Source of the DNA: Candidatus Puniceispirillum sp. | GTDB lineage: Bacteria > Pseudomonadota > Alphaproteobacteria > Puniceispirillales > Puniceispirillaceae | Length of the DNA stretch: 64,000 bases | Reading direction: 5' to 3' | Assembly: GCA_028382965.1 (NCBI GenBank) | Contig: JAOEUK010000003.1 | Location: 124,001-188,000, forward strand | Notes under the pieces: model-generated | The model's input: only the letters and a program-made list of their open reading frames with translations | Told to the model about the DNA's origin: nothing | The model's database searches: none | Translations under genes and position numbers: made by a program | Part shown: positions 10,764-26,963 of the stretch, piece by piece | How the letters are laid out: every line of letters starts with the position of its first letter | Numbering within the stretch: position 1 is the stretch's first letter

Positions 10764-11921
10764 TCATTTTTTTTGGACTTTAACTAAATAATTAGCCCAC
10801 TGCCATCCAATCTTTTCAAGATTAAATTGTTTTACCACATATTTTGATATTTTTATCCCTCTTTCGACCCTATCATTATTGCTCCAATTAGCTGCATCTT
10901 CAATAGCCGTCTTTAAAGCTTTCGCGTTGAGATCTATTAAAACTCCACCATATTTATCCCAACAATTCAACCCTGTTTCTTTGCTTGTAATAGTCGGTGT
11001 TTTTAACTGAGCTGCCTCTAGATTGACCATGGCCAAGACCTCAGAATAGGACGGTACAAGCACCACCCATGCAGAACTGACAAGTTTTTTTTTCTCTTCG
11101 CCATATACAGGTCCTAGAAATTTTATCCTTGATTTCTTTGATGACAAGTTTGTTAGTTTTTTTAACCTGCTGTAATAATTACTAACTTCTTTTGGTCCTG
11201 CAATTAGAAGCTCCCAATCGGAGGATATTACGGAAGCACTGAAAGCCTTGATTGCGATATCAACTCCTTTGACTGGATGCAGTCTTCCAAGAAACAAAAA
11301 ATATTTTTTAGAATCAAAAGCTTTAACATTTGCAATCTTAATATTCAAAGGGAGAAGCGAGTTTGGTATTATCAACTTTGCTCGCTTTTTAAAAAATAAT
11401 TCAAAATGGTTTGCCTCCAATTCAGTGATTGCATGAAGATGAACATTTTGATGAAGAAAAAAATGAGCAAAACCCTTCCAGTAAATTTGTTTTTTTAGAT
11501 GTTTTAGCCACCCCTGATGGCTCAGAGCCCATGGAGAGGTTGAGCCATGCGCGGACAGAATAAGGGGAAGTTTTAGTAAATGTGTTGCAATAGCGCTTAT
11601 GATAAATCCTGCGCGCCAAAATTCATGGACGTGAACATGGGTAATTTTTTGCAACCGGCAAATTTTCATCAGGCCTTTCAAACCTGTCAATGGATAGTTC
11701 CAACGACCAAATAGGAACCTCTTTTTGCTGACATTAATTACAACGCCATCTGGCCTAAAAACCTCGTTTTCGTTGACTGTGTGAACCCCAACCCATCCAA
11801 AATGCTTGGCCTGCCAGCCAGCTATTTGAGATACCGTTTTCGACACTCCAGTATTTTTAACCGAAAAATCATCTAAAACGTGAAGTATCCGAATAGCGCC
11901 ATATCGTTCTTCATTCAACAT
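10764..11921 (-). CDS. Glycosyltransferase family 4
   Basis: A retaining GT-B glycosyltransferase of about 385 residues. The N-terminal half has RILHVLDDFSVKNTGVSK and HVHEFWRAG; the C-terminal half has FLFLGRLHPVKGVDIAIKAF and the E-x7-E-like segment SYSEVLAMVNLEAAQLKTP. The ATG at 11921 lies just after the stop of the preceding fusion gene; a TTG at 11945 would give a 23-base overlap, and neither has a strong ribosome-binding site. Donor and acceptor are unknown. Confidence 0.8.
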   Translation of the reverse strand: MLNEERYGAIRILHVLDDFSVKNTGVSKTVSQIAGWQAKHFGWVGVHTVNENEVFRPDGVVINVSKKRFLFGRWNYPLTGLKGLMKICRLQKITHVHVHEFWRAGFIISAIATHLLKLPLILSAHGSTSPWALSHQGWLKHLKKQIYWKGFAHFFLHQNVHLHAITELEANHFELFFKKRAKLIIPNSLLPLNIKIANVKAFDSKKYFLFLGRLHPVKGVDIAIKAFSASVISSDWELLIAGPKEVSNYYSRLKKLTNLSSKKSRIKFLGPVYGEEKKKLVSSAWVVLVPSYSEVLAMVNLEAAQLKTPTITSKETGLNCWDKYGGVLIDLNAKALKTAIEDAANWSNNDRVERGIKISKYVVKQFNLEKIGWQWANYLVKVQKK

Positions 11922-11922
11922 T

Positions 11923-14031
11923 TTAAAAAGAAATGCCCTCACCAATTAACCGGTACCGCTCGCCACCGAGGCCAACTTTAAAGTTTGCAACCCCAAAGGT
12001 CTTAACTTCGTCTATACCGCCAAGATCAAAAAAATCAAAGCCTTGCTTTTTTGCACAAATAATTGCCGCCCATAAAAGTAAATAATGGCCCCGTAACCTT
12101 CGTCCGTCTGAACCGCTCCAGCCCAGAAAATATGTCAATGTATTGCCATGTGGCACACAAACTATTCCAGCTATCGGGATTTTATTTTCAAGAGCAACTG
12201 ACACAGTCAAGTGAGCCCCCGACGTTTTCATTTGATTGTATATTTCTTGGTATAACTTTATTGGAAACTTTTCACCTCTAGACTTCATCATCTCCAGACA
12301 GTTTTCCAAAAGCCAAGTAAAGGTCTTCTCATCACTCGATTTAATTACTTCAAGATTATTTTTTTGCGCTGAATTTAATAAATTACGCCATTTCCCAGCA
12401 AGTTGAGCCCGTAATAAGCTTTCGTCAAGCTTAAGATTTAGTAACGATGAACTCCAACCTTTTACATCGAGTAATTTGAATCTACTTGTATAAATACATG
12501 TTACATTTTCTTGTTGAATCCGTAATTCTGGTGCCCAAAACAAGACCCGCCCTGCTGAAAGCATACCAAGCTCTTTGCTAACACGTTCAAAGCAACTCTT
12601 CTTTAGCGATTCCGGGCAATTTTTTGCAAAAATTGGCCCTCGGTTTATTCTATAAATCTTAAAAAAACCAAATTTCAACTGCAGTACTTGAGCTACTGCG
12701 ACTAAGATCCCATTATGTTTTATTGCTAATCTTTTTAAATTCCAAATTGAATTTTTTTTCTTTGCCTCACCATAACTCCAACTTTGCAAAATATTTGAAT
12801 ATAAACAGTTCAGTAGAAATTCATTCCATTCTACCAGACTTAAACTATCCCATTCAAAAGTTATATTTTTTAAAGAATCATTCATTTTTTTATGAGAAAA
12901 CCAACTCAGTAAATCGTGTCCTTTTAATGATTGATGAATAGGCAAAAACATATTTTCATTTCTTAACCTTAAAGCAGTCGAATGATCATTTGAATCCATC
13001 TTACAGTTTGAGTTTAAATCAGGCCAACTTGACACTGGAATGCCCATTTCATTTAAAATCTTAAATGATTTTTTTGAATTTAATGAGCTATAACTAGCCC
13101 AGTAAGGCGTTCCTTCAGATTGAGGTGATCGCAAACTAGGTCGTAAGCCAAGTTGTGGATTCATTTCAACTAACTCATCCAAAATCTTTAGATTTAACTC
13201 ACGCGACAAACAGACAGACATTTGTGCACTCAATAGCTTTGGAATAGCACGTAAAGAAACATCTGAGATTTTCACCGTTTGCCAGCAAAAGACGGATGCA
13301 TCATCATTAAACATTAGAGGAATTTTTTTTGATCGAAAACCAAATTTTTGAAGAAGTCTCTTGATAAACCAGAGAATATTGTGGTTCACAAAGCGGTTAT
13401 TTACGAAGTTTTTTTTATTGTTAAAAACATATTCTTTTAATGAAAGTCCTGATAATATATCTACATTCAGTTTACTTGCACCCGTTGACTGCGCAAGCAA
13501 GACGGCACCATCAGGTATCGGGAGAATTTTATGAGGACTATAAAAAACAAAATCTCCCTCAGTCCCAATTGCTTTGTTATTTGGAAAGCAATGAGTTGCA
13601 TCCTCAACTAACCACGCGCCTGTTTTTTGGCAAAATTCCCGAGCTTTAGCAATTGGTTTGGCAAAACCAAAATAATGAACAAATATAAATATATCAGGAA
13701 CACTAATAGTCGACATCTTATAAACTGAGGAGTACTTTGGCTCTAATTTTTCGTCTATTGGATAGTAAAATATTTTTGCACCAACCTCCCTTAAAGGAGC
13801 AAGCGATACTTCACAAAAATATTCAGGAACCCAAACAATTACTGATTTATTAATATTTTTCTTTTTTCTGCACTCCGCTACCAATGCAAATGAATAGGCC
13901 GACTTCGATAGCCAGCCAACAAAAGCATCATTATCCCGAGTAAAGTGTGATCTGGCTACTTCGACATTACCTTTTTTGCCTGGCAAAAAATCAACAAATC
14001 CCTTCCAAGTGGGCAGTGGAACAAATGTCAC
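11923..14031 (-). CDS. DegT-type aminotransferase fused to FemAB-like acyltransferase
   Basis: A 702-residue protein with two enzyme halves. Residues 1 to about 380 resemble a DegT/DnrJ/EryC1 PLP aminotransferase: VEDATHCFP near 142-150 and the probable PLP lysine Lys168 in SPHKILPIPDGAV. The last 300 residues look like a FemAB/GNAT-fold peptidoglycan-bridge-type acyltransferase, with SAQKNNLEV, GIVCVPHGNTLTYFLGWS, LRGHYLLLWAAI and DFFDLGGID. I infer that one half could aminate a sugar and the other acylate an amine, perhaps with an aminoacyl group. The reading frame is continuous with no internal start. I do not know a named family with this layout. Confidence 0.72.
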   Translation of the reverse strand: MTFVPLPTWKGFVDFLPGKKGNVEVARSHFTRDNDAFVGWLSKSAYSFALVAECRKKKNINKSVIVWVPEYFCEVSLAPLREVGAKIFYYPIDEKLEPKYSSVYKMSTISVPDIFIFVHYFGFAKPIAKAREFCQKTGAWLVEDATHCFPNNKAIGTEGDFVFYSPHKILPIPDGAVLLAQSTGASKLNVDILSGLSLKEYVFNNKKNFVNNRFVNHNILWFIKRLLQKFGFRSKKIPLMFNDDASVFCWQTVKISDVSLRAIPKLLSAQMSVCLSRELNLKILDELVEMNPQLGLRPSLRSPQSEGTPYWASYSSLNSKKSFKILNEMGIPVSSWPDLNSNCKMDSNDHSTALRLRNENMFLPIHQSLKGHDLLSWFSHKKMNDSLKNITFEWDSLSLVEWNEFLLNCLYSNILQSWSYGEAKKKNSIWNLKRLAIKHNGILVAVAQVLQLKFGFFKIYRINRGPIFAKNCPESLKKSCFERVSKELGMLSAGRVLFWAPELRIQQENVTCIYTSRFKLLDVKGWSSSLLNLKLDESLLRAQLAGKWRNLLNSAQKNNLEVIKSSDEKTFTWLLENCLEMMKSRGEKFPIKLYQEIYNQMKTSGAHLTVSVALENKIPIAGIVCVPHGNTLTYFLGWSGSDGRRLRGHYLLLWAAIICAKKQGFDFFDLGGIDEVKTFGVANFKVGLGGERYRLIGEGISF

Positions 14032-14077
14032 AAAACTATCCTCGACAATATTTTTACTTTTTTAGCGCCATAATAAA

Positions 14078-14959
14078 TCAAAGCAGCTTAACTCCCATTT
14101 TTCCTGCCAAATGCATATCTAATAACTTTGCTTTTGAAGAGTACCTGAGATCACAAGCACCCTCAAGAAACGAACCAATAGTATAAACATTTTCATGAAC
14201 TGTGAGTGAATCTCGCCTTAAAATTTTTGCTGAACCCCAATCACGATTAAAGCCCCTTAAGCCAGAGTAAACAAAATCAAAATGCTCTGAAGCAATTTGT
14301 AATGCATCTTGCCCAATACTTGCAAAATCACCAAAAGGAAAAGCAAAGTGTTGAACTTTGAAACCTAATTTCTTTTCAATCACTTTTGCAGAATCTCTGA
14401 TTTCAACTTCCAATGTTTCTTTTGCTAGGCCTTGGGTTAAACGCTTATGCGATTTTGTATGCGCGCCAATTACATGGCCCATTTTCCTCAATTTTTTTAA
14501 ATCCTCCCAGTTCATGCTCCAGAGGTGATCCGAAAGGCCACTCTCTTTAGGATTTAATTTTAAGTTTTCTCTCACAAATTTTAGTGTCTGGCACTCTCTC
14601 TCTTCCTCAACAAAATCTGTAATCACAAAAAATATAGCCTTAATGTTCATCGGCTTAAGCACCTTATCTGCAACAAAAAAATCTGACTTAAAGCCATCAT
14701 CAAACGACACTAACAAAGAGTCTTTTTTAAGGAACTTACGTCCAGAGACAACTTTCTCAAAGTGCGTTGGGGTTATAAAGTTCCATCTTTTAGATAGCCA
14801 TTTCAATTGACTTTTCAGCAAATCCACTTCATTCGGTGCTATCCCATGATAAAGGAGAACCCTCAATGAGGGTTTTTCATTAACCCTAAAAGCACTACTA
14901 AATCGCCGAAACGTTCGGTAAAATGGGTACACAATTGGTAAACAAGCCTTTAAGAGCAT
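14078..14959 (-). CDS. Polysaccharide deacetylase family protein (NodB-like)
   Basis: A 293-residue carbohydrate esterase family 4-like protein. It has LLYHGI near residue 35, the catalytic-type LVSFDDGFKSD (Asp-Asp of motif 1) and HVIGAHTKSHKRL (His-x3-His metal site), then FAFPFGD. The N-terminus (LLKACLPIVYPFYRTF) is mildly hydrophobic but not a clear signal peptide. It probably removes N-acetyl groups from a glycan or glycolipid. It lies 46 bases upstream of the aminotransferase-FemAB gene, so it could expose amines for that enzyme (inference). Confidence 0.85.
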   Translation of the reverse strand: MLLKACLPIVYPFYRTFRRFSSAFRVNEKPSLRVLLYHGIAPNEVDLLKSQLKWLSKRWNFITPTHFEKVVSGRKFLKKDSLLVSFDDGFKSDFFVADKVLKPMNIKAIFFVITDFVEEERECQTLKFVRENLKLNPKESGLSDHLWSMNWEDLKKLRKMGHVIGAHTKSHKRLTQGLAKETLEVEIRDSAKVIEKKLGFKVQHFAFPFGDFASIGQDALQIASEHFDFVYSGLRGFNRDWGSAKILRRDSLTVHENVYTIGSFLEGACDLRYSSKAKLLDMHLAGKMGVKLL

Positions 14960-15184: not shown

Positions 15185-17062
15185 TTAATTGTCGCGGTTG
15201 CCCCCGCATTCATGTAGCTTATTAGTATTAAATTTTATAAGCCACGCCCCTGAAATGACGGAACGGTTAAAAGGATTGCGTGAAGCAATTTTCATTGGAC
15301 CAGACGTCGCAATAATCTCTTCAAAACAATTAAACAATGGCATTTTGTTGTTTGGCATACTTGTTAACAAGACATGAGTTACCCCTTCAGCCACCAAGCG
15401 ATCCAAATAAGCTTTGGGATAAGGTGCTGTATTAGGCAAATAATGAACCCAGGTATAATCCACTGCTAACCTCGGTGATAGGGCCATAGATCTGTGACCA
15501 TTTAGCAAAACTGCATCTTGAGGCAGAACCTTATCCACCCATTTCATTAAACTATATCCATTTGCAGAACTTCGCATTACGGCATCCCTCCAAGGCACAT
15601 TTAGCGATCCAGAAAATAAATATATCGAACTAATACTAGCAATTAAAAGAACACAAACAGTTTGCGCATAAATAATCTTATGAAGAAATGGTGGGAATAT
15701 AACATGTTTTGTCTGTATCCCCGATGCAACAATGACAAATGACAGTAAAATTGGTTCAAGATACACGCGTCCCGAGGGTGGAGCCAAAAAAGTATTTGCT
15801 ATAAAAATAAACCCAACTGTGAGTAAGGCCGCTAAATTCATATTGTTCAATTTCAACCTGAGAAAAAAGATTGGAAGAATCGAAAATCCAATAATAACGG
15901 ATATATCACCAATACTTGAAGGTAAAAAAATTGATATTGGAAATGGTAGCCAACCAGATGTATCAGCATTCTTGCTAAACAAGGAAATCATCTCCGCCGT
16001 CCCAGGATATTTTCCAGGCAAGGGAGAGAATAACGCCTCAAAAACATTGCCGCCCCAATTAAAAGCTTTCCAAATAGCGGAAGGCAGGACTAGGACCAAA
16101 AATGTTGAAAAAGCGATTAGAAGACTACTCTTCATCTCTTTTTGTAAAATCATTATATAAAGAGCAAACAACCCAACACAACCACCGCCCAACAAAAAAT
16201 TAAACTTCACTTGTGTGGCCGACGCGCAAAGAAAGCACACCATAGCGAATCGTTTTTTTAATACGACAACACTTATTCGCTCTAAAGAAGGGTGAGTGGC
16301 TATAAAAAATGCAATGACCAGCATTGATATTGGCCACATTAAAGGCTTAGCACCAGAAAGAAGGAACAACATTAAAGGACATGAAAGAACAGCAAGTGAT
16401 AGCACTCGTTCTTGACTGCAACCTCTCGAAAATGGTTTGAAATTTTCACCCCAAAACAAAGAGATAACTCCCATTACACTGCAATATTGAATCAAAGAGC
16501 CAAATTGTTCAGAACCAACAGATAAACCGATTGCATTTAAAGATTCGCCGCTGCCTGCTAGCCTTGCAGTGAACCACTCAGGTTTTCTTGGTAAAGAGCC
16601 TGAATTCAAAATTTCGATTGCAGAACCAAGATGATAATCTAAAACATCTGCAGCCGTTGTTGGCCCAAGTGAGAGCATCAACAAGATGATGGAAAGTAAT
16701 CCAAATAATATTTGTACTGGGCCTAAATAAAATTTTTCCAATTTCGTTTTTTGAATAAGCTCCGAATAAAATTTTACTAGTCTTAAAAAATTCAGTGTTC
16801 CAGCGGCCGCTATGAACAAGCCAAAAACCTGTCCAGTTGCATAGCCTGCAAATCCAAAAAATGAGATAAAATGGAAAATATTAGCGGTCACCATTGCCCC
16901 GACAGGAACCGAACAAAATCTAACTGGAAGACTATTGTCAGTTTTTAGAAATCCTAATAATTGAAAAAAGCGACTTCCAATTAAATCTAGACCTAAAACT
17001 AAAAAAATTGACATAATAAGAGAGTACGGAGCAGGGTACAGAAAGTTATCTAGACCAAACAT
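15185..17062 (-). CDS. Polytopic membrane protein, GT-C-like
   Basis: A roughly 625-residue inner-membrane protein with at least ten hydrophobic segments and a soluble C-terminal tail. The pattern of a first luminal loop (GPTTAADVLDYHLG, then PEWFTARLAGSGE) followed by many helices resembles GT-C glycosyltransferases and the LIC_10190-type membrane proteins of glycan loci. The ATG at 17062 follows a GGAG Shine-Dalgarno by six bases and is preferred over an upstream TTG. The neighbour is a GtrB-like GT2, so it may use the polyprenyl-phosphate sugar made by that protein (inference). A polymerase role cannot be excluded. Confidence 0.6.
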   Translation of the reverse strand: MFGLDNFLYPAPYSLIMSIFLVLGLDLIGSRFFQLLGFLKTDNSLPVRFCSVPVGAMVTANIFHFISFFGFAGYATGQVFGLFIAAAGTLNFLRLVKFYSELIQKTKLEKFYLGPVQILFGLLSIILLMLSLGPTTAADVLDYHLGSAIEILNSGSLPRKPEWFTARLAGSGESLNAIGLSVGSEQFGSLIQYCSVMGVISLFWGENFKPFSRGCSQERVLSLAVLSCPLMLFLLSGAKPLMWPISMLVIAFFIATHPSLERISVVVLKKRFAMVCFLCASATQVKFNFLLGGGCVGLFALYIMILQKEMKSSLLIAFSTFLVLVLPSAIWKAFNWGGNVFEALFSPLPGKYPGTAEMISLFSKNADTSGWLPFPISIFLPSSIGDISVIIGFSILPIFFLRLKLNNMNLAALLTVGFIFIANTFLAPPSGRVYLEPILLSFVIVASGIQTKHVIFPPFLHKIIYAQTVCVLLIASISSIYLFSGSLNVPWRDAVMRSSANGYSLMKWVDKVLPQDAVLLNGHRSMALSPRLAVDYTWVHYLPNTAPYPKAYLDRLVAEGVTHVLLTSMPNNKMPLFNCFEEIIATSGPMKIASRNPFNRSVISGAWLIKFNTNKLHECGGNRDN

Positions 17063-17142
17063 GTTAGACTCCAAAAAAACAAAAAAATGAGGTATGAACT
17101 ATTTGTGATTTATTGGTTAACAATATTTTAATTTTGTTCCTG

Positions 17143-18081
17143 TTATTTCTTTGAGTTTATAAACTCACGTTCAAACGCGCGCCTATCAAGATAGGCAATG
17201 CTGTCAAGAATAAGGGCGACAGCGGCCGTAATAATTGCAACTATCTCAATCGCACTTGCTAAAATTGCTGAAGGTATCAAGGAGACATATCCAGTCTCAA
17301 GAAATTCTTTTATCACTGGGTAGCCAATAATAAGACCAAGAAAAAACAATAGAAATGACATAGTGCCAAAAAGCTTCAGAGGCCTGTAATACCGAAAAAT
17401 GTTTAAGAGTGTTAAGATAACACGGATTCCATCTTTAAAAGTATTCAACTTTGATACGCTGCCTGTTGGCCTATCTTGGTACGAGATTGAAACTTCTTTA
17501 ATATGTAATCTTTTATCAAGAGCGTGTAGAGTCATGTCCAATTCCACATCAAAACCCGCCGCCATTACCGGATATGTCTTAACAAACCTTCGAGAAAAAA
17601 CACGATACCCACTTAGAATGTCAGAGAGGCTAGTTGCAAACAGCCAATTCACCAAGTTCCTAATCATCTTATTGCCAAAGTTATGGAATTGCCGTTTATT
17701 TTCTTTAGCGTAGTGTCCTCCAACGTGTCTGTCCCCAACAACCATTTCAGCTTCACCGGCCACGATTGGCTGCAGTAATTTATAGATCTCTGCAGCTGGA
17801 TATGTTAAATCAGCATCTGCTACTACAAATATATCTGCTTCAACTTCATCAAAAGCACAACGAATGCCATTTCCTTTGCCAGATCGCCTCACATTTAGAA
17901 CACCACCCTTGCACTTAAGTTTATTTAAAGTATTCAACGAAATTGACTCAGTCGAATCTGTTGATAGATTATTGGCCACCCATATTTCAGCTTCCGGGGC
18001 GTGCTTGTTAAAATCTTCAATAGTAAGCCTTATCGTTGCTTCCTCATTATAAGCTGGCAAAATAATCGCGATTTTTTTCAT
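17143..18081 (-). CDS. GT2 polyprenyl-phosphate glycosyltransferase (GtrB/ArnC/DPM1-like)
   Basis: A 312-residue family 2 glycosyltransferase. The GT-A domain has IILPAYNEEATIR, VVADADLTYPA (DxD-type metal site) and ILSGYRVFSRRF; two C-terminal membrane helices follow after residue 230. This layout is that of enzymes that load a sugar onto undecaprenyl or dolichyl phosphate. The ATG at 18081 is chosen because the family starts directly with MKKIAIILPAYNEE; an upstream GTG at 18105 is possible. It partners naturally with GT-C enzymes and GtrA flippases, and both types occur in this locus. Confidence 0.85.
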   Translation of the reverse strand: MKKIAIILPAYNEEATIRLTIEDFNKHAPEAEIWVANNLSTDSTESISLNTLNKLKCKGGVLNVRRSGKGNGIRCAFDEVEADIFVVADADLTYPAAEIYKLLQPIVAGEAEMVVGDRHVGGHYAKENKRQFHNFGNKMIRNLVNWLFATSLSDILSGYRVFSRRFVKTYPVMAAGFDVELDMTLHALDKRLHIKEVSISYQDRPTGSVSKLNTFKDGIRVILTLLNIFRYYRPLKLFGTMSFLLFFLGLIIGYPVIKEFLETGYVSLIPSAILASAIEIVAIITAAVALILDSIAYLDRRAFEREFINSKK

Positions 18082-18111
18082 TTTTAAAATCTCTTGTTTG
18101 AACACTTTGTT

Positions 18112-18999
18112 CTAGTAGTTAAATTTGAAAAGATTAGAACACAAACCAACCCAACATCTTGCGCAAAATGGGAAACTAATAACAGACTTAAAAAAATAGT
18201 AATATGCTCTACTAAAATTTCCATTTTTTTGCAGAGAACGAGCTCCCTCATAATAAATCAAGGATGAACGACGCCTAACATGCCACCATGATGGTTTTAA
18301 TGACATTGTTAAAAGATGGTGTTGAAAGACCGCTTGAATTGCACGCATATTACGCAAAGGTTTGGCGCTATTACTATCTGAATGAACTCGATACTCTCCT
18401 AAAATTTCATTTAAAAAAGTAATTTTTGCGCCCCCCCGAGCCAACCTTAACCAAAGGTCATAATCTTCCGCTGTGACAAATTCTTTTGATTCACAAAACA
18501 GACCTACTTTTTTTAAAAAATCTCGAGACAAAACAACTGCAGAAGTCGAAATACAGTTCCTAGAAAAAAGTAGTTTTTCATAAGTTGCTAAAGTAGCTGG
18601 GCCATAGAGTACATGACGTGTTTTTGAACCATTCTCGACCCAAGCTTCTCCGTGACAAACAAGGTCAAAGCCCTCACCTAAAATTTTCAAACATTTAGAT
18701 AACTTTTCTGAGGTCCAAGTGTCGTCAGAGTCCAAAAAAGCAATAAAGGGGGCCTTTGACATTTTTAGAGCAATATTTCTTGAAGCTGCGATTATACCAT
18801 TATTTGAATATTGGATGGTTTTAATTCTAGAATCATTAAACGATGCCAGAACAGTGGCTGTGTGGTCATCAGAGTAGTTATCGACGACAAAAGCTTCCCA
18901 CAACTTAAAGCTTTGACTTAGTAAAGAATTCAATGCCTCAGACAAATAATCTGCTTGATTATATGTCGGTATAATTACTGAAACAATTGCTCGTGGCAT
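18112..18999 (-). CDS. Glycosyltransferase family 2
   Basis: A 295-residue GT-A glycosyltransferase with VSVIIPTYNQADYLSEAL, FVVDNYSDDHT and the metal-binding FLDSDDTW, then VTAEDYDLWLRLA, which places the catalytic base region. No membrane helices are needed for its role; the C-terminus is moderately hydrophobic. It is cytoplasmic and extends a lipid-linked glycan. The next gene downstream, GtrB-like, starts 30 bases after it, which suggests one transcript. Donor unknown. Confidence 0.88.
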   Translation of the reverse strand: MPRAIVSVIIPTYNQADYLSEALNSLLSQSFKLWEAFVVDNYSDDHTATVLASFNDSRIKTIQYSNNGIIAASRNIALKMSKAPFIAFLDSDDTWTSEKLSKCLKILGEGFDLVCHGEAWVENGSKTRHVLYGPATLATYEKLLFSRNCISTSAVVLSRDFLKKVGLFCESKEFVTAEDYDLWLRLARGGAKITFLNEILGEYRVHSDSNSAKPLRNMRAIQAVFQHHLLTMSLKPSWWHVRRRSSLIYYEGARSLQKNGNFSRAYYYFFKSVISFPFCARCWVGLCSNLFKFNY

Positions 19000-19305: not shown

Positions 19306-20247
19306 TTAGAGCCTGTGAAGGAAGAACTTCAGGGCTTTGTCGATTTCAGAAGAAAAGTCTAATTTTCCCTTAAAGCCCGCCGCCTGAATCTTTTTTAGCC
19401 CATAATTAAATTTAGTCGGTTTTTTTTCTAAGCTGGTATTTATTCTATTGATTAACAGATTTTTTGATAAAACATTAGCGGCTCGGCTTGAAACAAGCTC
19501 TGCCATTTGCAAAACCGACATGGTTTTGCCGCCAAGATTAAACAATCCGTCTCCAAGCTGGGAATAATCGGTTTCGACAAAGTGCTGCAATGCATTGCAT
19601 ACATCTTCAAGTGAAATAAAATTACAAAATTGTGCACCACTACTATTTAATAAGAGATCGTTCTTTGTTACTGCTTGGATACATAAATTATTAACCAGCA
19701 AAGACCAACTACTCTCACTCTCGGTCATTGGCCTCCCAAAGCTGTTGGACAAACGAATAATAACTCCTTCAATTTGCCCAGCTTTACTTGCAGCAAAAAC
19801 AAAATCTTCTGCTGTTCTCTTTGTAATCCCATAAGCATCTAATGGATTGGGTAAAGTTCTCTCTGATACGTTGCCTATCAAACTTCTGCCATAAACGTGG
19901 GCAGTAGACATAAAAATAAAGCGAGGGACTTTGGCTTTAATTGCTGCTTTAAGAAGATTGTATGTATTAACACAATTAACTCTTATCGCCTCATTTGGCG
20001 ATATGGATGACTCAGCACGTCCCAAGCCAGCCAGATGAACAATACAATCCGCTCTGGCACATAAAGAAAGCAACCTTGATTCATTGTCCCATTCAACCGT
20101 CTCAATTAATATGCCTTGGCTCTCTTCAGAAAGATGATTCTTTCCTTCTCTGGAGACAGAGACAACATTGTGACCCATTTTATAAAGATGGTTTGTTGCG
20201 CGTCCACCAACGTAGCCAAGTCCGCCAAAAATAACGATGTTAGCCAT
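19306..20247 (-). CDS. NAD-dependent nucleotide-sugar epimerase/reductase
   Basis: A 313-residue extended SDR. It has the NAD-binding IVIFGGLGYVGGR, a conserved STAHVYG strand and the catalytic AYGITK (Tyr-x-x-x-Lys). It follows the 3,5-epimerase-like and CDP-glucose genes with 14 bases between, so a role as 4-ketoreductase or epimerase finishing a CDP-6-deoxyhexose is the natural inference. By sequence alone it could equally be a UDP-hexose 4-epimerase-like enzyme. Confidence 0.8.
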   Translation of the reverse strand: MANIVIFGGLGYVGGRATNHLYKMGHNVVSVSREGKNHLSEESQGILIETVEWDNESRLLSLCARADCIVHLAGLGRAESSISPNEAIRVNCVNTYNLLKAAIKAKVPRFIFMSTAHVYGRSLIGNVSERTLPNPLDAYGITKRTAEDFVFAASKAGQIEGVIIRLSNSFGRPMTESESSWSLLVNNLCIQAVTKNDLLLNSSGAQFCNFISLEDVCNALQHFVETDYSQLGDGLFNLGGKTMSVLQMAELVSSRAANVLSKNLLINRINTSLEKKPTKFNYGLKKIQAAGFKGKLDFSSEIDKALKFFLHRL

Positions 20248-20261
20248 TGAGACCCTTTACT

Positions 20262-20696
20262 TTACCAAACATAGGGGACTTTAGGGTCCAAATAAGAAAT
20301 GCGCAATATTTCTTCCGGATTGTGCGGAATACTCGAGCAATTAGCAATCAATGCAGGTGTATCACCCATGCCTTTAAAACCATTCCAAATTAACGGAGGA
20401 ATTTTGACACAACAATATTTATCAGGGCTTAATAGTATTTCTTCAACTGTTCCCTTGCTTTTACTGGTTTGCCTATCATCGTAAAGAACTAATTTAATAC
20501 TCCCAATTGGAACCGCATAATTTATTTCCATTTCGAGGTGAAGGTGCCATCCCTTTACGAAACCAGGATTTACTGTTGAAAAATAAATTTCACCAAATTG
20601 ATTGAAGTTTTCGTTATCACTTCTCATCATGTGCATCACTTTTCCACGATCATCCTCTATTTGCCGTAATGCAGTGATTTTCACTCCTTCAATCAA
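20262..20696 (-). CDS. dTDP-4-dehydrorhamnose 3,5-epimerase-like cupin
   Basis: A roughly 144-residue RmlC-like cupin. It starts like relatives (IEGVKITALRQIEDDRGKV) and has GWHLHLEMEINYAVPIGSIKLVLYDDR. The TTG at 20696 follows a GGAG by six bases and gives the family N-terminus; it overlaps the rfbG stop by 8 bases. The protein is shorter than RmlC (about 180), as is usual for the group found with CDP-sugar genes. It probably epimerises C3 and/or C5 of CDP-4-keto-6-deoxyglucose (inference from the adjacent rfbF and rfbG). Confidence 0.8.
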   Translation of the reverse strand: MIEGVKITALRQIEDDRGKVMHMMRSDNENFNQFGEIYFSTVNPGFVKGWHLHLEMEINYAVPIGSIKLVLYDDRQTSKSKGTVEEILLSPDKYCCVKIPPLIWNGFKGMGDTPALIANCSSIPHNPEEILRISYLDPKVPYVW

Positions 20697-21777
20697 ACTT
20701 AACTCCAAAATAACTCTCAAGTTGTATCTTTGTTACTTTATGTGGGCATTGTTTTTGTTGAAAAACATCAACATACCAGCTAGCCGTTTTTTCGATCGTA
20801 GTCTCAAAATCCCATCTAGTTTTCCAATTTAGAAATTGTTTAGCTTTGTCACTATTAAGTTGTAAAATATTTGCCTCAATTAACTTGGAACCTTCGGCAC
20901 TGATACAAACTTCACCATTTTTAAAGTAACTTGCCAAACCCCTTGCTACATCTAAAACTGTTTGAACTTCTCCAACATCTGGTCCAAAATTCCATGCTAA
21001 ATCATAATCGTCTGGTTTATCAAAGATACGAACAGCTAACTCCAAATATCCCGATAAAGGTTCTAAAACATGCTGCCAAGGACGAACCGCATCAGGGTTC
21101 CGCAAAGTTATAGGTTCATTTTCTAAGAAAGCTCTCATGCAATCAGGAACAATTCTGTTAGCAGCCCAATCACCACCTCCAATTACGTTTCCTGCACGCA
21201 CCGTAACAGCTCCAAAGCTATCCCGATTAAACAAAAAAGACCTGTAGTACGCCGAAAAAACAATCTCCGCCGCAGCTTTTGATGCACTATATGGATCTTT
21301 ACCACCTAGTATATCTGTTTCGCGGTAGCCCCAGGCCCATTCTAAATTCTCATAACATTTGTCAGAGGTAACAAAAATCAATGCTTTGATACTTGGCGTT
21401 TCTTTTACCGCATCTAGTAAATTAACACTGCCCATAACATTAGTCGAAAAAGTTGTATGAGGATCAAAAAAAGCCTCACTGACTAGTGCCTGTGCGGCGA
21501 GATGAAACACAATTTCGGGTTGGTGTCTCGAAAAAGTATCTTTTAAAGCTGCTGCATCACAAAGATTCCCATCGGTATGGTCGATTACTTTACTAAGCTG
21601 CAATAAATCATAGTTGCTGTTCTGATAGCTTGGCGGTAATGCAAAGCCAGAGACCTTAGCTCCCAATTTCATCAACAGAAAACAAAGCCATGAACCTTTG
21701 AACCCTGTATCACCCGTAACAAGAATACGCTTGCCTCTGAAAAAGCCATCATCTAATTTTTGTTTTAAACCACCCAT
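20689..21777 (-). CDS. rfbG: CDP-glucose 4,6-dehydratase
   Basis: A 362-residue extended SDR that converts CDP-glucose to CDP-4-keto-6-deoxyglucose. It contains RILVTGDTGFKGSWL, typical of RfbG/DdhB, the HLAAQALV motif, FVTSDKCYEN and the catalytic DPYSASK. RAGNVIGGGDWA and RPWQHVLEPLSGYL are also hallmarks. It overlaps rfbF by 13 bases and the 3,5-epimerase-like gene by 8. The identity is strong. Confidence 0.94.
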   Translation of the reverse strand: MGGLKQKLDDGFFRGKRILVTGDTGFKGSWLCFLLMKLGAKVSGFALPPSYQNSNYDLLQLSKVIDHTDGNLCDAAALKDTFSRHQPEIVFHLAAQALVSEAFFDPHTTFSTNVMGSVNLLDAVKETPSIKALIFVTSDKCYENLEWAWGYRETDILGGKDPYSASKAAAEIVFSAYYRSFLFNRDSFGAVTVRAGNVIGGGDWAANRIVPDCMRAFLENEPITLRNPDAVRPWQHVLEPLSGYLELAVRIFDKPDDYDLAWNFGPDVGEVQTVLDVARGLASYFKNGEVCISAEGSKLIEANILQLNSDKAKQFLNWKTRWDFETTIEKTASWYVDVFQQKQCPHKVTKIQLESYFGVKFD

Positions 21778-22538
21778 GGAGCATTACCTGTCTTGTAAAG
21801 TTCATTTAGTAGGCCGTAATCGCGTTGGGTATCCATAGGCTGCCAAAACCCATCATGCCTAAACATGCAAAGCTGCCGCTCTTGAGCTAGAGTTCGCATT
21901 GGGTTTTGTTCAAACACTAAGTTATTATCATCGTTGAGGTATTCAAAAATTCTTTTGCTCACCACAAAAAAACCACCGGATATTCTTCCGCCGGATGCCT
22001 GGGGCTTTTCATTAAACTTAGTTACAAAATCACCGCTTTCCTCAAGTTCACCAAACCTTCCGGGAGGGCGCACACCGGTAACTGTTAAAGTTTTCCCATG
22101 GGCTAAATGAAAAAGTTTAAGTTTCTTAAGATCTACATTTCCCAGCCCGTCACCATAGGTGAGCATAAAATCATCCCCATTAATATAACTCTCGATAGCC
22201 TTAACCCTCGCGCCAGTCATTGATGCAATACCTGTTTCAACAAGAGTAACCTTCCAATTCACGCCAACATTTTCTCGATGAAACTCTATGCCTCCTGACG
22301 AGCCTAATTTAACCGTAATATCATTCACGTTGGTGTCATAATTGAGAAAGAAATCTTTTATTCTCTCACTTTTGTAGCCAAGGCAGAGTATAAAATCATT
22401 AAATCCAAAACTAGAATAATGATTCATTATGTGCCAGAGAATTGGAAAACGTCCAATGGGTATCATTGGTTTAGGCAAATGCTCGGAGACATCTCTAATT
22501 CTTGTTCCATAACCACCACATAAAATTACGACTTTCAA
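21765..22538 (-). CDS. rfbF: Glucose-1-phosphate cytidylyltransferase
   Basis: This 257-residue nucleotidyltransferase makes CDP-glucose from CTP and glucose-1-phosphate. It has KVVILCGGYGTR and KPMIPIGRFPILWHIMNHY at the N-terminus, FMLTYGDGLGNVD for metal binding and VTGVRPPGRFGEL. The start is taken as TTG at 22538, which has a GGAG six bases upstream and gives the usual N-terminus; a GTG at 22550 is the alternative. It opens the CDP-6-deoxyhexose module. Confidence 0.94.
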   Translation of the reverse strand: MKVVILCGGYGTRIRDVSEHLPKPMIPIGRFPILWHIMNHYSSFGFNDFILCLGYKSERIKDFFLNYDTNVNDITVKLGSSGGIEFHRENVGVNWKVTLVETGIASMTGARVKAIESYINGDDFMLTYGDGLGNVDLKKLKLFHLAHGKTLTVTGVRPPGRFGELEESGDFVTKFNEKPQASGGRISGGFFVVSKRIFEYLNDDNNLVFEQNPMRTLAQERQLCMFRHDGFWQPMDTQRDYGLLNELYKTGNAPWVV

Positions 22539-22574
22539 TTTAATCTCCACCCAAATTACTCTATTATAGAAATA

Positions 22575-23774
22575 TCAACGAAAATGATGATAATAAGAGT
22601 CCATCATTTTATCCACAGTAAATAGGGTTTTAACCCTCTTATACCCCTCCTGTCCCATTTTTTTGCGGACTGTTGGACTTGTTAATAAGTCATTGATAGC
22701 TCTACCTAACACAACTGGATCATTTGCCCGAACAACTCTCCCAGTAACACCATCCAACACAATTTCTTTCATGCCCCCAAAATCACTGCAAATAACAGGT
22801 TTTTTGTGAACCATAGCCTCCAAAATTACCATTCCAAAAGCCTCATAATCAATTGAAGGAACAACAAGAATGTCAATATTCTTTAAAAAGGCTTCAATAT
22901 CCTCTTCGTTAATTGAAAATTTACAATGATATGGTTGAAGACCAGCAAGACCCTCTAATCTCCGTAAATAGGAAGGATCACCTTTGCCTAATAATTCTAA
23001 TTTACAATTTGAACTTATATATTGCCCAGCTTCAATAAGAACATGGGCGCCTTTTGTTGGGACAAAGGCGCCAAGAAACCCGACTAGCGGAAGAGCAGAG
23101 CCTTTATTAATTTTTTTAACAGGTTTTTCTATTGTTTGAATACCGTTATAAACAACATAAATAGGCCTCATAAAATTACGCTTTGACAAAGCAGCTGAAG
23201 CAGCTTTCGACACAGTTAGGATTTTTGAAGCTGCTCTGCCAATAAGTCGCTCTTGTATTAATTCTAAAAATTTAAGCCTTTTGCTATACGGAGACGGAAA
23301 GCTATGCAAAACAAGACAACGGTTCTTTGCACCAAAAATCCATCCGAGTAATAACAAATGCCGAACAAAAGCCCCAGCCGGCCAACCACCATGATGAAAA
23401 ACTATCACGTCAAAGTCTTTGCTCCTCAATATGTACAAAAACCATATTGCAATCTTTGGAAGAAACACAATTTCGTTTACAAGCAAACATAGGAGACGCA
23501 AAAACCATTGTAGATTTTTATTTCCTATGCCTTGAAACATTTCTTCGACTTGATGAAGGGGAACCAAAAATGGACAACTGACAACATCTTGTAACTTTTT
23601 ACTGCCCTTCTCTTTACAATCAGCATTATGCTTAAGGCTTGCAAACCAGTGCTCCTTATTGAGAAGAATAGTTACCTCGTCAGAAGGATGTAAGTTTTTA
23701 CAAAATGTACTCCAAACATTGAACATACCAACTGTGAGTTTTTCATACTCCTCAGTTATCAATAGAATCTTCAT
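22575..23774 (-). CDS. Glycosyltransferase family 4
   Basis: A 399-residue GT-B glycosyltransferase. The C-terminal half has VGFLGAFVPTKGAHVLIEAG and the donor-site PSIDYEAFGMVILEAMVHKKPVI... region ending in GGMKEIV. The N-terminal half includes a hydrophobic patch (LLCLLVNEIVFLP) that may touch the membrane. It overlaps the LIC12162-family gene by 4 bases (ATGA) and lies 36 bases from rfbF, so transfer of the CDP-deoxyhexose is possible but unproven. Confidence 0.86.
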   Translation of the reverse strand: MKILLITEEYEKLTVGMFNVWSTFCKNLHPSDEVTILLNKEHWFASLKHNADCKEKGSKKLQDVVSCPFLVPLHQVEEMFQGIGNKNLQWFLRLLCLLVNEIVFLPKIAIWFLYILRSKDFDVIVFHHGGWPAGAFVRHLLLLGWIFGAKNRCLVLHSFPSPYSKRLKFLELIQERLIGRAASKILTVSKAASAALSKRNFMRPIYVVYNGIQTIEKPVKKINKGSALPLVGFLGAFVPTKGAHVLIEAGQYISSNCKLELLGKGDPSYLRRLEGLAGLQPYHCKFSINEEDIEAFLKNIDILVVPSIDYEAFGMVILEAMVHKKPVICSDFGGMKEIVLDGVTGRVVRANDPVVLGRAINDLLTSPTVRKKMGQEGYKRVKTLFTVDKMMDSYYHHFR

Positions 23775-25588
23775 ACTGAAAGACCAGTGACTGATTTGAT
23801 CGATAGGAGTGCTCTCTTCAATTTCCTTACTGGTTGGTCCTCAAATTTTGCATATTTGTTGCAAAAGGTCTGTCGAGCATCTTTAACTGCCTCACTTAAC
23901 CACCACTCATCAACACTATTCCAACAGCAATCAAGCCAATCAGCTGCCTCCGATGCATTTAAATGAATTAACCCGACACTCACTAATTCTTCATAATCAC
24001 TTTGAGCGGAAACTAATAAATGATCTAAACCACCGTGCCAAAGACAGATACAAGGAATACCTAGCGATAAAAATTCCAAAAAGCCCGCTGAGTCATAAGC
24101 AAATATCGTTAATCTATTTGTCTTGGCCAATTTTAGAATGTCTATATGCCCATCATCTATTTCAACATCAGGGATGTTCTTATACCATCTCTTTTTATCA
24201 CTCCACTCCCTTTTCTCTGCCAAATGATGGAGGCGAACGACTAAGTTCTTCTTGATATTTTCTGGTAGTGACTGAACAAAATTAATTTGGAATTTTTGAT
24301 TCAAGTTAAAATCACGCAGGCTATCCCAATGATGAACAAAATGAGGCATAAGAGGCATAACTAGCATTAATCTTGAATAGTTATTCAAGGATCGTTTTAC
24401 TTTGCCCCCTACAAATTTTTGTCCAGCAGTTTTCAACAAAAACATTGGCATTTCCCTTGTTTGAGAACAGCACCACCCCCAAGTCAAGAAGCGATCACTG
24501 GTTGTCATTTCAGGGCCAAACTTTGTTAAAAGATACTTGTGTGTTCCATAGGCAGATCCATGTTGACCCACGATATAAGGAACTCCCTTCTCTACCTTTG
24601 TTCCTACCCAAAATTTAAAAACCTCATCTGTGTCGAAATTATTAGAAGTAAAAATGAACTTTGGGTTCTTGGGCAAATTCTGCTGTTCTGCTAATATTTT
24701 CAGCTCTGAAAATTTTTCAAGAAAACACCTTGGAATAAAATCAAATAAAAGCTCTCTTGCGATCCCCTCAAAATCATTTGTTTTAAACCCAAATTCTGTT
24801 TTCAAAGATGATCTCAAAGATTTATCTTCAGGACAAAGAGATATACCTGCTGAGGTATGAAACAGAGGCAGTTGTCCCAGTGACAAATGCAAAAATAGCT
24901 CTACCTTTTTTGGTAAATATGGCTTAACAATCACAGCATCATTGTGCTTCATTAAGGTTCTTGAGACTGTTTGCAGAGTCTTCTTCGTAATTATTTTGAA
25001 TTGATTTGGGGGCAACGTATTTTGTTTTTTTTCGGGAGACAGCGTGGCGTCAATTTTGCTTTTTAACGTCAGACATTCAATGTCATGGCTCATCCGTTTG
25101 AGGAGCATGCCAAACAAGTGATGATTCCAGTGTTGATCGTTAGTCCTAAGAATAAAATCAAGGGAGGTCAAAGCTGAAAATTCATACTGCTTTCTTTCAA
25201 TAATATAAGTGTGCGTAAGTCCAGGAATTAAAAGAGCAGATCTTAAACGTTGGTATCTGAAGAGAAGGCTTGAGACATATCTTTGGAGCCAATGGCCAAG
25301 TAAAATATTCCAAAACCTTGATGAGTAATCACAACAATTTACGTTATTGAGTATTGGGATAACATCATTTAATATACTTAACGAAAGTTTTTGTATGTAA
25401 AAAAAATTAGCATCTCTGCTTTTTACTGAGTTATTATTTGCATTAATTAATTCATACTTATAACCGTTAAGACATTTTTTTTCTGGAGATGGGACAGCCC
25501 ATAATCCAAGAAGTTTGTTAGGCGCACTTTTATCCCATGTCTTCATAATTGAAGTCGTAACAAGACACTCTTGTCGTTTCACAATCAT
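23771..25588 (-). CDS. LIC12162-family putative surface-glycan transferase
   Basis: A 605-residue protein that fits the LIC12162 family of putative transferases seen in O-antigen and nonulosonate loci. The N-terminal signature is LVTTSIMKTWDKSAPNKLLGLW. The C-terminal part looks GT-B-like, with YIVGQHGSAYG, a basic VVRLHHLAEKREW and TIFAYDSAGFLEFLSLGIP. It lies three genes from neuCBA, so transfer of a CMP-nonulosonate is a fair inference, but the family has no established reaction that I know of. Confidence 0.72.
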   Translation of the reverse strand: MIVKRQECLVTTSIMKTWDKSAPNKLLGLWAVPSPEKKCLNGYKYELINANNNSVKSRDANFFYIQKLSLSILNDVIPILNNVNCCDYSSRFWNILLGHWLQRYVSSLLFRYQRLRSALLIPGLTHTYIIERKQYEFSALTSLDFILRTNDQHWNHHLFGMLLKRMSHDIECLTLKSKIDATLSPEKKQNTLPPNQFKIITKKTLQTVSRTLMKHNDAVIVKPYLPKKVELFLHLSLGQLPLFHTSAGISLCPEDKSLRSSLKTEFGFKTNDFEGIARELLFDFIPRCFLEKFSELKILAEQQNLPKNPKFIFTSNNFDTDEVFKFWVGTKVEKGVPYIVGQHGSAYGTHKYLLTKFGPEMTTSDRFLTWGWCCSQTREMPMFLLKTAGQKFVGGKVKRSLNNYSRLMLVMPLMPHFVHHWDSLRDFNLNQKFQINFVQSLPENIKKNLVVRLHHLAEKREWSDKKRWYKNIPDVEIDDGHIDILKLAKTNRLTIFAYDSAGFLEFLSLGIPCICLWHGGLDHLLVSAQSDYEELVSVGLIHLNASEAADWLDCCWNSVDEWWLSEAVKDARQTFCNKYAKFEDQPVRKLKRALLSIKSVTGLSV

Positions 25589-26868
25589 TATAACCTACGC
25601 AATGCCTTCAGATAGGCAGTCGGCCTGTGTAATAACCTGTTATAATGATAATTGCGCATTGCAGAAAATGAAAACCTATTTTTTAAGAGCAATTGACAAA
25701 GCCTCAAAAAATCAATGAACACAAGGCATATAAAATCAAGCCTTTGAAACAATCGCGAAATACTTGATAATTTACTTTCTTCAGACACAATTAAATCAGC
25801 AACTTGAGATACAGGATCAGGGTTTGCAGACAAAGAGTAAAATGAATCTAAATACAAATCTACTTTGTCTGACTTTTTTGCTTCCAGATCCTTTGCCATA
25901 CAAAGGCCTGCTACTTCTTCAACATTATTAGGTAAGTAAGCACACTCACTTAACTCATCCAAACTTTCGTAAACCTCCTTGTTCGAATATCTAAATTTCT
26001 GAATATTATGAAAAGAGACAATCGGCACTCCAGAGATATACGCCTCAGTGTATGCCGACGACACCGGTCCAGTCACAACATCAACGGAACTCAAAAACTC
26101 ACAAACATCAAGACTTCTATCAATAGTAACTTTTGGCCCAAACTCTTTTACTAATATTTTATAGCCATCAATGGCTTCATTAGGATGAGGCCTTATCTTT
26201 ACATTTTTGTCCGCCAAAATTAATTTTCTTATCAACTTGCACATAATCGCAAAGGATTCAGCGTCAATACTCTTCTTTTCAAAATAAAAACGAGTGTCAG
26301 CAGCATCATAATCCTCAGGATCTAAATTTAGTATATCCATAAATTGATGACGGCTATCCCAATTATTTAAACTTTCAAATCTACTCAAAACACCAATGGT
26401 ATTGTTATCACTCTTTAAAACCAATCGATTTAACAAACTGTTTCTAATAGACCCAAAATTATGGACTCTTTCATGCAGAATGTTTGTATTTTCTTTAACC
26501 CAATTAGAAGACCACTTGCTCCAAACTATTAGGCCTGAAAATGTCTCTACCTTTAACTCATCTCGATACAGAACCTCCATGCATGTTTGATCCTCAATAA
26601 CCTCCTCAACAATATTTACGTAAAATCTAACACCTTTCTTGATTGCTTTAATTCTGTCATCTACGTCTAGCGTGAATGGATGGCTTAATACGACTGCATC
26701 TGGAACAAGAAATTTAAGAATCAATCGAGTGCTTAAACGTGATGTTAAAGCCACTCTATAGCCACGCTTCCTCAACTCTTCACCTAACAACCACGAAGAC
26801 GTATATTCACGCCTGAAGGTATCAACATGTATTAGGGCTAAAGGACGTTTGTTCCAAAAATAAGACAT
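25588..26868 (-). CDS. Surface carbohydrate biosynthesis protein, GT-B-like
   Basis: A 426-residue protein without clear catalytic motifs. ALIHVDTFRREYTSSWLLGEEL, LKFLVPDAVVLSHPF and the C-terminal VDVVTGPVSSAYTEAYISGVPIVSFH resemble the surface-polysaccharide GT-B family in which a nucleotide sugar sits under a Ser/Thr-rich loop. The ATG at 26868 is preferred to the TTG one codon earlier. It touches the LIC12162 gene by one base, suggesting coupled translation and a joint role, possibly in adding the nonulosonate. Confidence 0.6.
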   Translation of the reverse strand: MSYFWNKRPLALIHVDTFRREYTSSWLLGEELRKRGYRVALTSRLSTRLILKFLVPDAVVLSHPFTLDVDDRIKAIKKGVRFYVNIVEEVIEDQTCMEVLYRDELKVETFSGLIVWSKWSSNWVKENTNILHERVHNFGSIRNSLLNRLVLKSDNNTIGVLSRFESLNNWDSRHQFMDILNLDPEDYDAADTRFYFEKKSIDAESFAIMCKLIRKLILADKNVKIRPHPNEAIDGYKILVKEFGPKVTIDRSLDVCEFLSSVDVVTGPVSSAYTEAYISGVPIVSFHNIQKFRYSNKEVYESLDELSECAYLPNNVEEVAGLCMAKDLEAKKSDKVDLYLDSFYSLSANPDPVSQVADLIVSEESKLSSISRLFQRLDFICLVFIDFLRLCQLLLKNRFSFSAMRNYHYNRLLHRPTAYLKALRRL

Positions 26869-26963
26869 CAATAAATTCTTCTTTAATTCTTAAGATTACT
26901 TGGTGTTTCGTTCACTAACACAACCAATAAAAAAGGTTCTAAGATTTTTAGCAAAGCTTGATC

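Follow-up and report, generated by a model that had tools for sequence, protein, structure and literature searches.

A recurrent aminotransferase–FemAB fusion gene accompanied by a NodB-type deacetylase in bacterial glycan loci

Described systems and the locus studied

The closest known system to the locus described here is the holdfast modification pair HfsH/HfsK of Caulobacter crescentus, in which HfsH is a NodB-type deacetylase, reported as cytosolic, and HfsK a FemX-like tandem-GNAT protein, both proposed in the available text of two reports to modify exopolysaccharide precursors (PMC5362036, PMC8449245). HfsK was suggested to acylate the amines exposed by HfsH, its exact role being called unclear in the same available text (PMC5362036). 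In Hirschia baltica, as far as the accessible part of the report goes, deletion of hfsK left holdfast binding visibly unchanged (PMC8449245), which counts against the HfsH/HfsK logic as a general rule. The DNA analysed here (64,000 nucleotides from Candidatus Puniceispirillum sp.; hereafter the window) resembles that pair in that a NodB-type polysaccharide deacetylase of 293 residues (14078-14959, minus strand; PF01522, E-value 1.5e-18), with no clear signal or transmembrane segment by hydropathy, is encoded beside a FemX-like protein. It differs in that the FemX-like protein is joined to an aminotransferase (AT), whereas in the available text on HfsH/HfsK no AT is described, hfsK lies outside the hfs locus, and HfsK is c-di-GMP-responsive. 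Against the HfsH model NF050820 the window deacetylase scored 27.9 bits, below the cut-off of 400.

The FemAB (TIGR03019) and deacetylase (TIGR03006) proteins of XrtA/PEP-CTERM systems likewise combine a FemAB protein with a deacetylase in an exopolysaccharide locus. The window proteins scored below the curated cut-offs of both models (13.2 versus 260.35 bits for TIGR03019; 12.9 versus 276.2 bits for TIGR03006) and, unlike the cassette around the fusion, these models include no AT. The Arn (aminoarabinose) pathway comes near in another respect, since a DegT aminotransferase, an N-acylation, a family 2 glycosyltransferase (GT2) and a NodB-type deacylase act in one pathway there, as in the fusion cassette, and ArnB, ArnA, ArnC and ArnD carry out protect-and-release for aminoarabinose. 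ArnA is a formyl-tetrahydrofolate user, not FemAB-like, and we know of no fusion of the AT-FemAB type in that pathway.

The fusion gene and its two domains

The fusion gene (14031..11923, minus strand; 702 residues) was delimited by its open reading frame, Pfam matches, structure model and recurrence. It is a single frame with zero internal stops, and the plus strand across 11923-14031 contains 65 stops when read; a continuous frame joining DegT and FemAB domains, as claimed in an earlier note on this DNA, is therefore present, but on the minus strand. The GTG start at 14031 follows a GAGGA Shine-Dalgarno-like site located 7 bases 5' of it (both within 14014..14046, minus strand), and the N-terminus aligned with the N-termini of other family members. 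The deacetylase gene ends 46 bases before the fusion gene starts, and a downstream gene for a GT4-type glycosyltransferase (10764..11945, minus strand; open reading frame and Pfam) overlaps the 3' end of the fusion gene. The locus is a long minus-strand run of glycan genes with FnlA-, FnlB- and WecB-type genes and CDP-glucose genes, and it also contains two NeuB genes together with HisF/HisH-like genes. Two adjacent proteins encoded elsewhere in the window (23771-25588, 605 residues; 25588-26871, 427 residues) had no Pfam match at E-value 0.001. No second full-length copy of the fusion was found in the source genome.

The AT domain (residues 1-381; 12889..14031, minus strand) was assigned by its fold and by the PLP lysine Lys168 with the cofactor-contacting Asp144 and with His147. 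The Pfam DegT family (PF01041) matched residues 78-169 only marginally (E-value 2.9e-4; 20.6 bits versus a cut-off of 19.8), compared with 262.7 and 353.3 bits for two ordinary DegT enzymes elsewhere in the window; at E-value 0.01, PF01041 matched 13 of the 14 fused proteins described below. An AlphaFold2 model of the fusion, computed from a 65-sequence alignment, had a mean pLDDT of 92.3 and a pTM of 0.91. Residues 1-381 of this model matched sugar aminotransferases and their relatives with Z-scores of 26-29 among the 50 matches listed, including Spr1654 (Z 29.1; 323 aligned residues, model residues 1-379), WecE (28.5), and ArnB and PseC (28.3 each), the fold-family assignment being one among the families listed by VIA-align. 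In a viral fold library no query TM-score exceeded 0.37 among the matches listed. Lys168, which the earlier note had called intact, is so and sits in the motif SPHK; together with Asp144 and His147 it was conserved in all 32 AT rows reaching the site, and Cys73 in 33 of 33. SPHK is one of the half's own motifs, the others being W67-x-P-x-YFC(N) and WPDL. Relative to the DegT/DnrJ/EryC1/StrS aminotransferases (ArnB, PseC, WecE, Spr1654), the fold, the PLP lysine and the conserved Asp and His are the same, whereas the sequence is very divergent and the domain is joined to FemAB. The model thus clearly places this half in the DegT-type sugar aminotransferase fold, with catalysis predicted.

The FemAB domain (residues 390-702; 11926..12864, minus strand) was assigned as a tandem GNAT by fold, profile alignment and conservation. 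Pfam reported FemAB (PF02388; E-value 2.1e-14, residues 615-698; 53.7 bits versus 24) and Acetyltransf_6 (E-value 2.6e-6, residues 541-675). The modelled domain matched FemA with a Z-score of 28.3 over 293 residues at 2.6 Å and S. aureus FemX with a Z-score of 28.0; the top Foldseek matches were Weissella FemX entries (E-value about 2e-17), followed by S. aureus FemX, FemA, Sbb17 and Sba18, the last two being peptide synthases that depend on tRNA. A profile of the FemAB half matched W. viridescens FemX from end to end (E-value 5.4e-17), and this profile alignment, read by eye, places Phe684-Lys685 on FemX Phe304-Lys305 and Lys424 on FemX Lys36, in a numbering consistent with the title of PDB entry 1xe4 (‘K36M’). 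According to the available text of the FemX study, Lys305 and Phe304 are catalytic and essential for activity, and Lys36, Arg211 and Tyr215 bind the substrate (acceptor) (PMC4964394).

Lys685 was present in 25 of 25 FemAB proteins from the loci, and in 31 of 31 AT-linked proteins and 36 of 36 from genomes without an AT (both sets are defined below), and is thus a family-wide residue; Phe684 was present in 24 of 25, with a single Tyr as the exception. Because the Phe684-Lys685 pair also occurs in all 36 FemAB proteins of the genomes without an AT, the motif alone is no proof of tRNA use. At the profile positions aligned with FemX Arg211 and Tyr215 neither residue is kept, which makes a peptidoglycan precursor an improbable acceptor. 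Relative to the FemABX transferases (W. viridescens FemX, S. aureus FemA and FemX, Orf11, Sbb17), the tandem-GNAT fold is therefore common across the whole domain and the residues equivalent to Phe304-Lys305 and Lys36 are retained, whereas Arg211 and Tyr215 are not retained at the aligned positions and an AT is attached.

We take the C-terminal half to have a FemA/FemX fold and to be a candidate user of aminoacyl-tRNA. If it were instead an acyl-CoA-dependent N-acetyltransferase, the protein would make an N-acetylated amino sugar; many stand-alone relatives are indeed annotated ‘GNAT family N-acetyltransferase’, and Acetyltransf_6 matches every one of the 14 fused proteins. Structure and profile searches, however, rank FemX, FemA and the tRNA-dependent Sbb17 as the best relatives, and the retained Phe304-Lys305 pair of FemX points the same way, which makes simple acetylation improbable. 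Both folds read from the sequence in the earlier note were recovered by structure prediction and domain search, the alignments bear out conserved catalytic residues in both halves, and the outcome that would have spoken against that note, a C-terminal half lacking the FemAB fold, did not occur.

Recurrence of the fusion and its partner genes

A collection of GTDB-species genomes was scanned with an alignment of the AT half (4 rows, 3 of them from fused proteins); since the query was the AT half alone, loci were not chosen for the fusion. The scan returned 32 loci, or 33 with the window, comprising 14 in which the two domains are fused, 11 in which they are split with the FemAB gene within about 1 kb, 7 without a FemAB gene in the locus DNA examined, and 1 contig-end fragment (L093), whose removal leaves the 32 scored loci used below. 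In the 13 fused loci besides the window the fusion proteins were at 26-34% identity; in L086, the contig starts inside the AT half. The genome that holds the stand-alone AT L089 contains one further fused gene (L096). By record title, fused genes occur in six phyla (Pseudomonadota, Bacteroidota, Bacillota, Nitrospirota, Bdellovibrionota and Planctomycetota), and their carriers include many MAGs as well as the named strains Syntrophomonas wolfei JCM 14075 (L066) and Lachnospiraceae GAM79 (L088), the record of the latter (AP018536) being titled a complete genome. A chance join, an assembly error or a decaying gene is refuted by this recurrence and has a negligible probability, given 14 fused loci (not all independent), named strains with a complete-genome record, and conserved catalytic residues. 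The same domain order, which the earlier note had proposed to look for, is found in other genomes, and that note's alternative of relatives that are always two separate genes is not what the loci contain.

Among the 8 genomes without a FemAB gene in the AT locus DNA examined (L093 included), 7 hold a FemAB relative with an E-value below 1e-88. One of these relatives is L086, from the same isolate as the fragment L093, another is the fused L096, and L094 and L098 adjoin a deacetylase gene at a contig end, so that in these two the usual trio of AT, FemAB and deacetylase was probably cut by contig breaks. Quick trees required four changes between fused and split states for the AT half and three for the FemAB half, with most Rhodospirillales split forms in one group; from these multiple changes of state, fusion or fission appears to have taken place repeatedly.

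The AT family is rare. Within the genus, only the window genome and a relative (G013; 724 residues, 30% identity) carry it among 16 genomes examined, several of them incomplete. An order-level search found it in 2 of 136 genomes at E-value 1e-20, and at E-value 1e-10 it was found in 6 of 385 genomes of the class and 7 of 398 of the phylum, the full-domain matches in each set being the window and one other (2 of 385 for the class). A plasmid search returned 16 records, none with 80% query coverage. A distant AT relative near alkaline-phosphatase-like and GNAT genes was seen on a plasmid of the haloarchaeon Natronorubrum daqingense (L009:4967-8945).

In 23 of the 32 scored loci a deacetylase gene was found no more than 1 kb from the AT or FemAB gene, and a limit of 2.1 kb raises the count to 24. 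The loci in which none was scored are L064, L070, L075, L077, L079, L080, L086 and L092; L070 and L086 both end a short distance away. The deacetylases of L087, L088 and L089 were scored with a profile built from L087 and L088, and Pfam confirms those two. Asp87-Asp88 of the deacetylase were conserved in 23 of 23 rows, and His167 and His171 in 20 of 20 non-gap rows. The deacetylase accompanies 12 of the 14 fused genes, and in 9 of these 12 a GT2 gene also lies within 1.6 kb of the deacetylase gene. In the window, the GT2 of the type found near the deacetylase elsewhere (18112..18999, minus strand; Pfam and profile) is 3.2 kb from it. Repeated occurrence in glycan loci, which the earlier note had named as a sign in favour, is supported by a nearby GT2 in 10 of the 14 fused loci, 8 of them confirmed by Pfam (PF00535/PF10111/PF13641) and two (L076 and L088) scored by a profile built partly on counted loci, seven of them. 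Between the cassette's deacetylase and GT2 genes of the window (15185-18105), a DUF1420 protein adjoins an AglJ-like GT2, and the two could belong to a polyprenyl-phosphate sugar pathway.

In G188 (L013, L081) the AT, FemAB and deacetylase genes overlap by about four bases, each start lying within the preceding stop, and in L085 (6127-7887) a 587-residue GT2-deacetylase fusion is followed directly by the AT-FemAB fusion, giving four predicted activities on two proteins. In several Rhodospirillales loci the split trio lies beside hemY, hemD or hemC, as assigned by Pfam in L072, L073, L074 and L083 and by sequence cluster in L067 and L078, and no GT2 was scored in these split loci beside heme genes. 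The earlier description of the fusion as a self-contained enzyme does not hold in this light, the deacetylase being with 12 of the 14 fused genes and several Rhodospirillales split forms adjoining heme-synthesis genes. A hydropathy scan found no clear signal or transmembrane segment in the AT, FemAB or deacetylase proteins, except in two rows, both from L081, with values of 2.0-2.1 inside the domain.

The kinds of enzyme that act in the Arn pathway (DegT AT, acyltransferase, GT2, NodB-type deacylase) recur together in these loci, and the adjacent GT2-deacetylase and AT-FemAB fusion genes of L085 fit an arrangement in which the AT makes the amine, FemAB acylates it, the GT2 moves the sugar to polyprenyl phosphate, and the deacetylase strips the acyl group. 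The conserved GT2 would have to be a polyprenyl-phosphate transferase for this, however, the AglJ-like GT2 cluster was seen in just 4 loci and DUF1420 in the window alone, and NodB enzymes are not known to reverse FemAB chemistry; we consider such protection and release quite unlikely.

Lys424 and the proposed function

FemAB proteins tied to an AT (n = 31; 25 from the loci and 6 from the genome search) were compared with FemAB relatives from genomes without an AT, that is, with no AT match at E-value 1e-10 in the class and phylum genome samples. Dropped from the Lys424 count were L020, whose frame is broken, L095, judged to be L086 again, L106 (same as L021), and L107, L110 and L115-L126, in which the match begins past the site or covers it poorly. 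Lys424 was the best-separating well-filled column of the FemAB half, occurring in 31 of 31 AT-linked proteins versus 1 of 36 from genomes without an AT, the sole exception (L113) being a distant relative; Trp430 was second best (31 of 31 versus 3 of 35). L015 and L023, which come from genomes without an AT, group in the tree with AT-linked FemAB proteins, yet lack Lys424. The AT-linked proteins form largely one group in the tree, so that shared ancestry weakens the argument and the counts are not phylogenetically independent. Read most simply, the alignment suggests that the FemAB acceptor differs where the AT is present.

Whether the two halves share an amine is the point on which the cassette could be read otherwise. 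FemAB might acylate the amine exposed by the deacetylase, with the AT making a second amino sugar of the same repeat unit and the fusion serving only to couple expression or localisation. A cytosolic deacetylase and a FemX-like protein were proposed to act in one Caulobacter holdfast pathway, in the available text of that report (PMC5362036). FemAB-deacetylase neighbours also occur in genomes without an AT (L039, L103-L105), so that FemAB could instead accept what the deacetylase produces, and in 7 split loci (L067, L072-L074, L078, L083, L091) the FemAB and deacetylase genes are on one strand and the AT gene is on the other. Set against this, Lys424 follows the AT and not the deacetylase, residue 424 being Ser in L039, Leu in L103, and Met in L104 and L105, and in the scored loci the partner joined to FemAB is the AT 14 times and never the deacetylase. 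We regard action on separate amines as possible but rather unlikely. A fusion-bearing Magnetococcales genome is in the same family as the genomes of L103, L104 and L105.

That the fusion exists and recurs is shown, as are its two intact folds and the co-occurrence of its halves with the deacetylase. We read its product, with a probability of roughly 0.5, as a bifunctional enzyme, probably located in the cytosol, that belongs to a recurrent cassette for modifying glycans (GT2, NodB-type deacetylase, AT and FemAB). The AT half, with PLP on Lys168, would transaminate a keto sugar linked to a nucleotide or to polyprenyl diphosphate; the FemAB half would then transfer an aminoacyl group, in a tRNA-dependent manner, onto that new amine; the deacetylase would free an additional amine on the same precursor; and a surface polysaccharide with an aminoacylated amino sugar would result. 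A common amine for the two halves is our inference, helped by the Lys424 correlation. A FemABX-like enzyme, Orf11, glycylates streptothrisamine from Gly-tRNA, according to the available text (PMC12945691), and the top fold matches of the FemAB half include Sbb17 and Sba18, both with structures determined with streptothrisamine.

Among the neighbouring genes, most of which were compared by sequence cluster, no type of dehydratase gene was found to be shared by every fusion locus. At distances of up to about 8 kb, glucose-1-phosphate cytidylyltransferase genes over the cut-off occur in the window, L062, L065, L085 and L088, and within the same distance one is found in L084 (by sequence cluster only) and in the split form G188. 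The window contains genes for a glucose-1-phosphate cytidylyltransferase, a CDP-glucose 4,6-dehydratase, a 3,5-epimerase-like protein and an epimerase/dehydratase-family protein (19306-22550), possibly a complete CDP-6-deoxysugar set. As a source of the AT substrate, the CDP-glucose genes are a weak lead: the cytidylyltransferase is over the cut-off in 47 of 190 class genomes anyway, the window, L062, L065 and L084 have several gene clusters in common, and the epimerase-like and epimerase/dehydratase genes of the window could finish a CDP-sugar without the fusion.

No single Pfam or NCBIfam model spans both halves, the window protein's matches covering one half each, and the Pfam families of the 14 fused proteins and the NCBIfam families of the 65 aligned proteins are all single-activity by description. 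In a published study that mentions both DegT and FemAB, the available text lists them as separate genes, in two loci. The earlier statement that no named family has this layout holds for Pfam, NCBIfam and the open-licence PMC literature, in which neither the layout, nor its distribution, nor the Lys424 marker was found. Each half belongs to a known superfamily, and the combination, its spread and the putative Lys424 marker are those for which we found no earlier description in these sources.

Aminoacylated sugars are present in some bacterial polysaccharides, and few of the enzymes that attach amino acids to polysaccharide sugars are known. The fusion bears on what FemX-like proteins do in exopolysaccharide loci, hinting at which enzyme makes the other's substrate and so making the question reducible to a single protein. 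Lys424 provides a one-residue prediction for telling AT-linked FemAB proteins from others. Tentatively, and at clearly less than even odds, these proteins may be rare, phylum-spanning and previously undescribed bifunctional amino-sugar aminoacyl synthases, in which the AT would aminate a diphosphate-linked sugar and the fused FemAB, its acceptor site marked by Lys424, would charge the amine from tRNA, and which with the cytosolic deacetylase and GT2 would make up a cassette for placing genetically encoded amino acids on the surface glycans of bacteria. The recurrence of the fusion beside a deacetylase points to an unstudied route of surface-sugar decoration.
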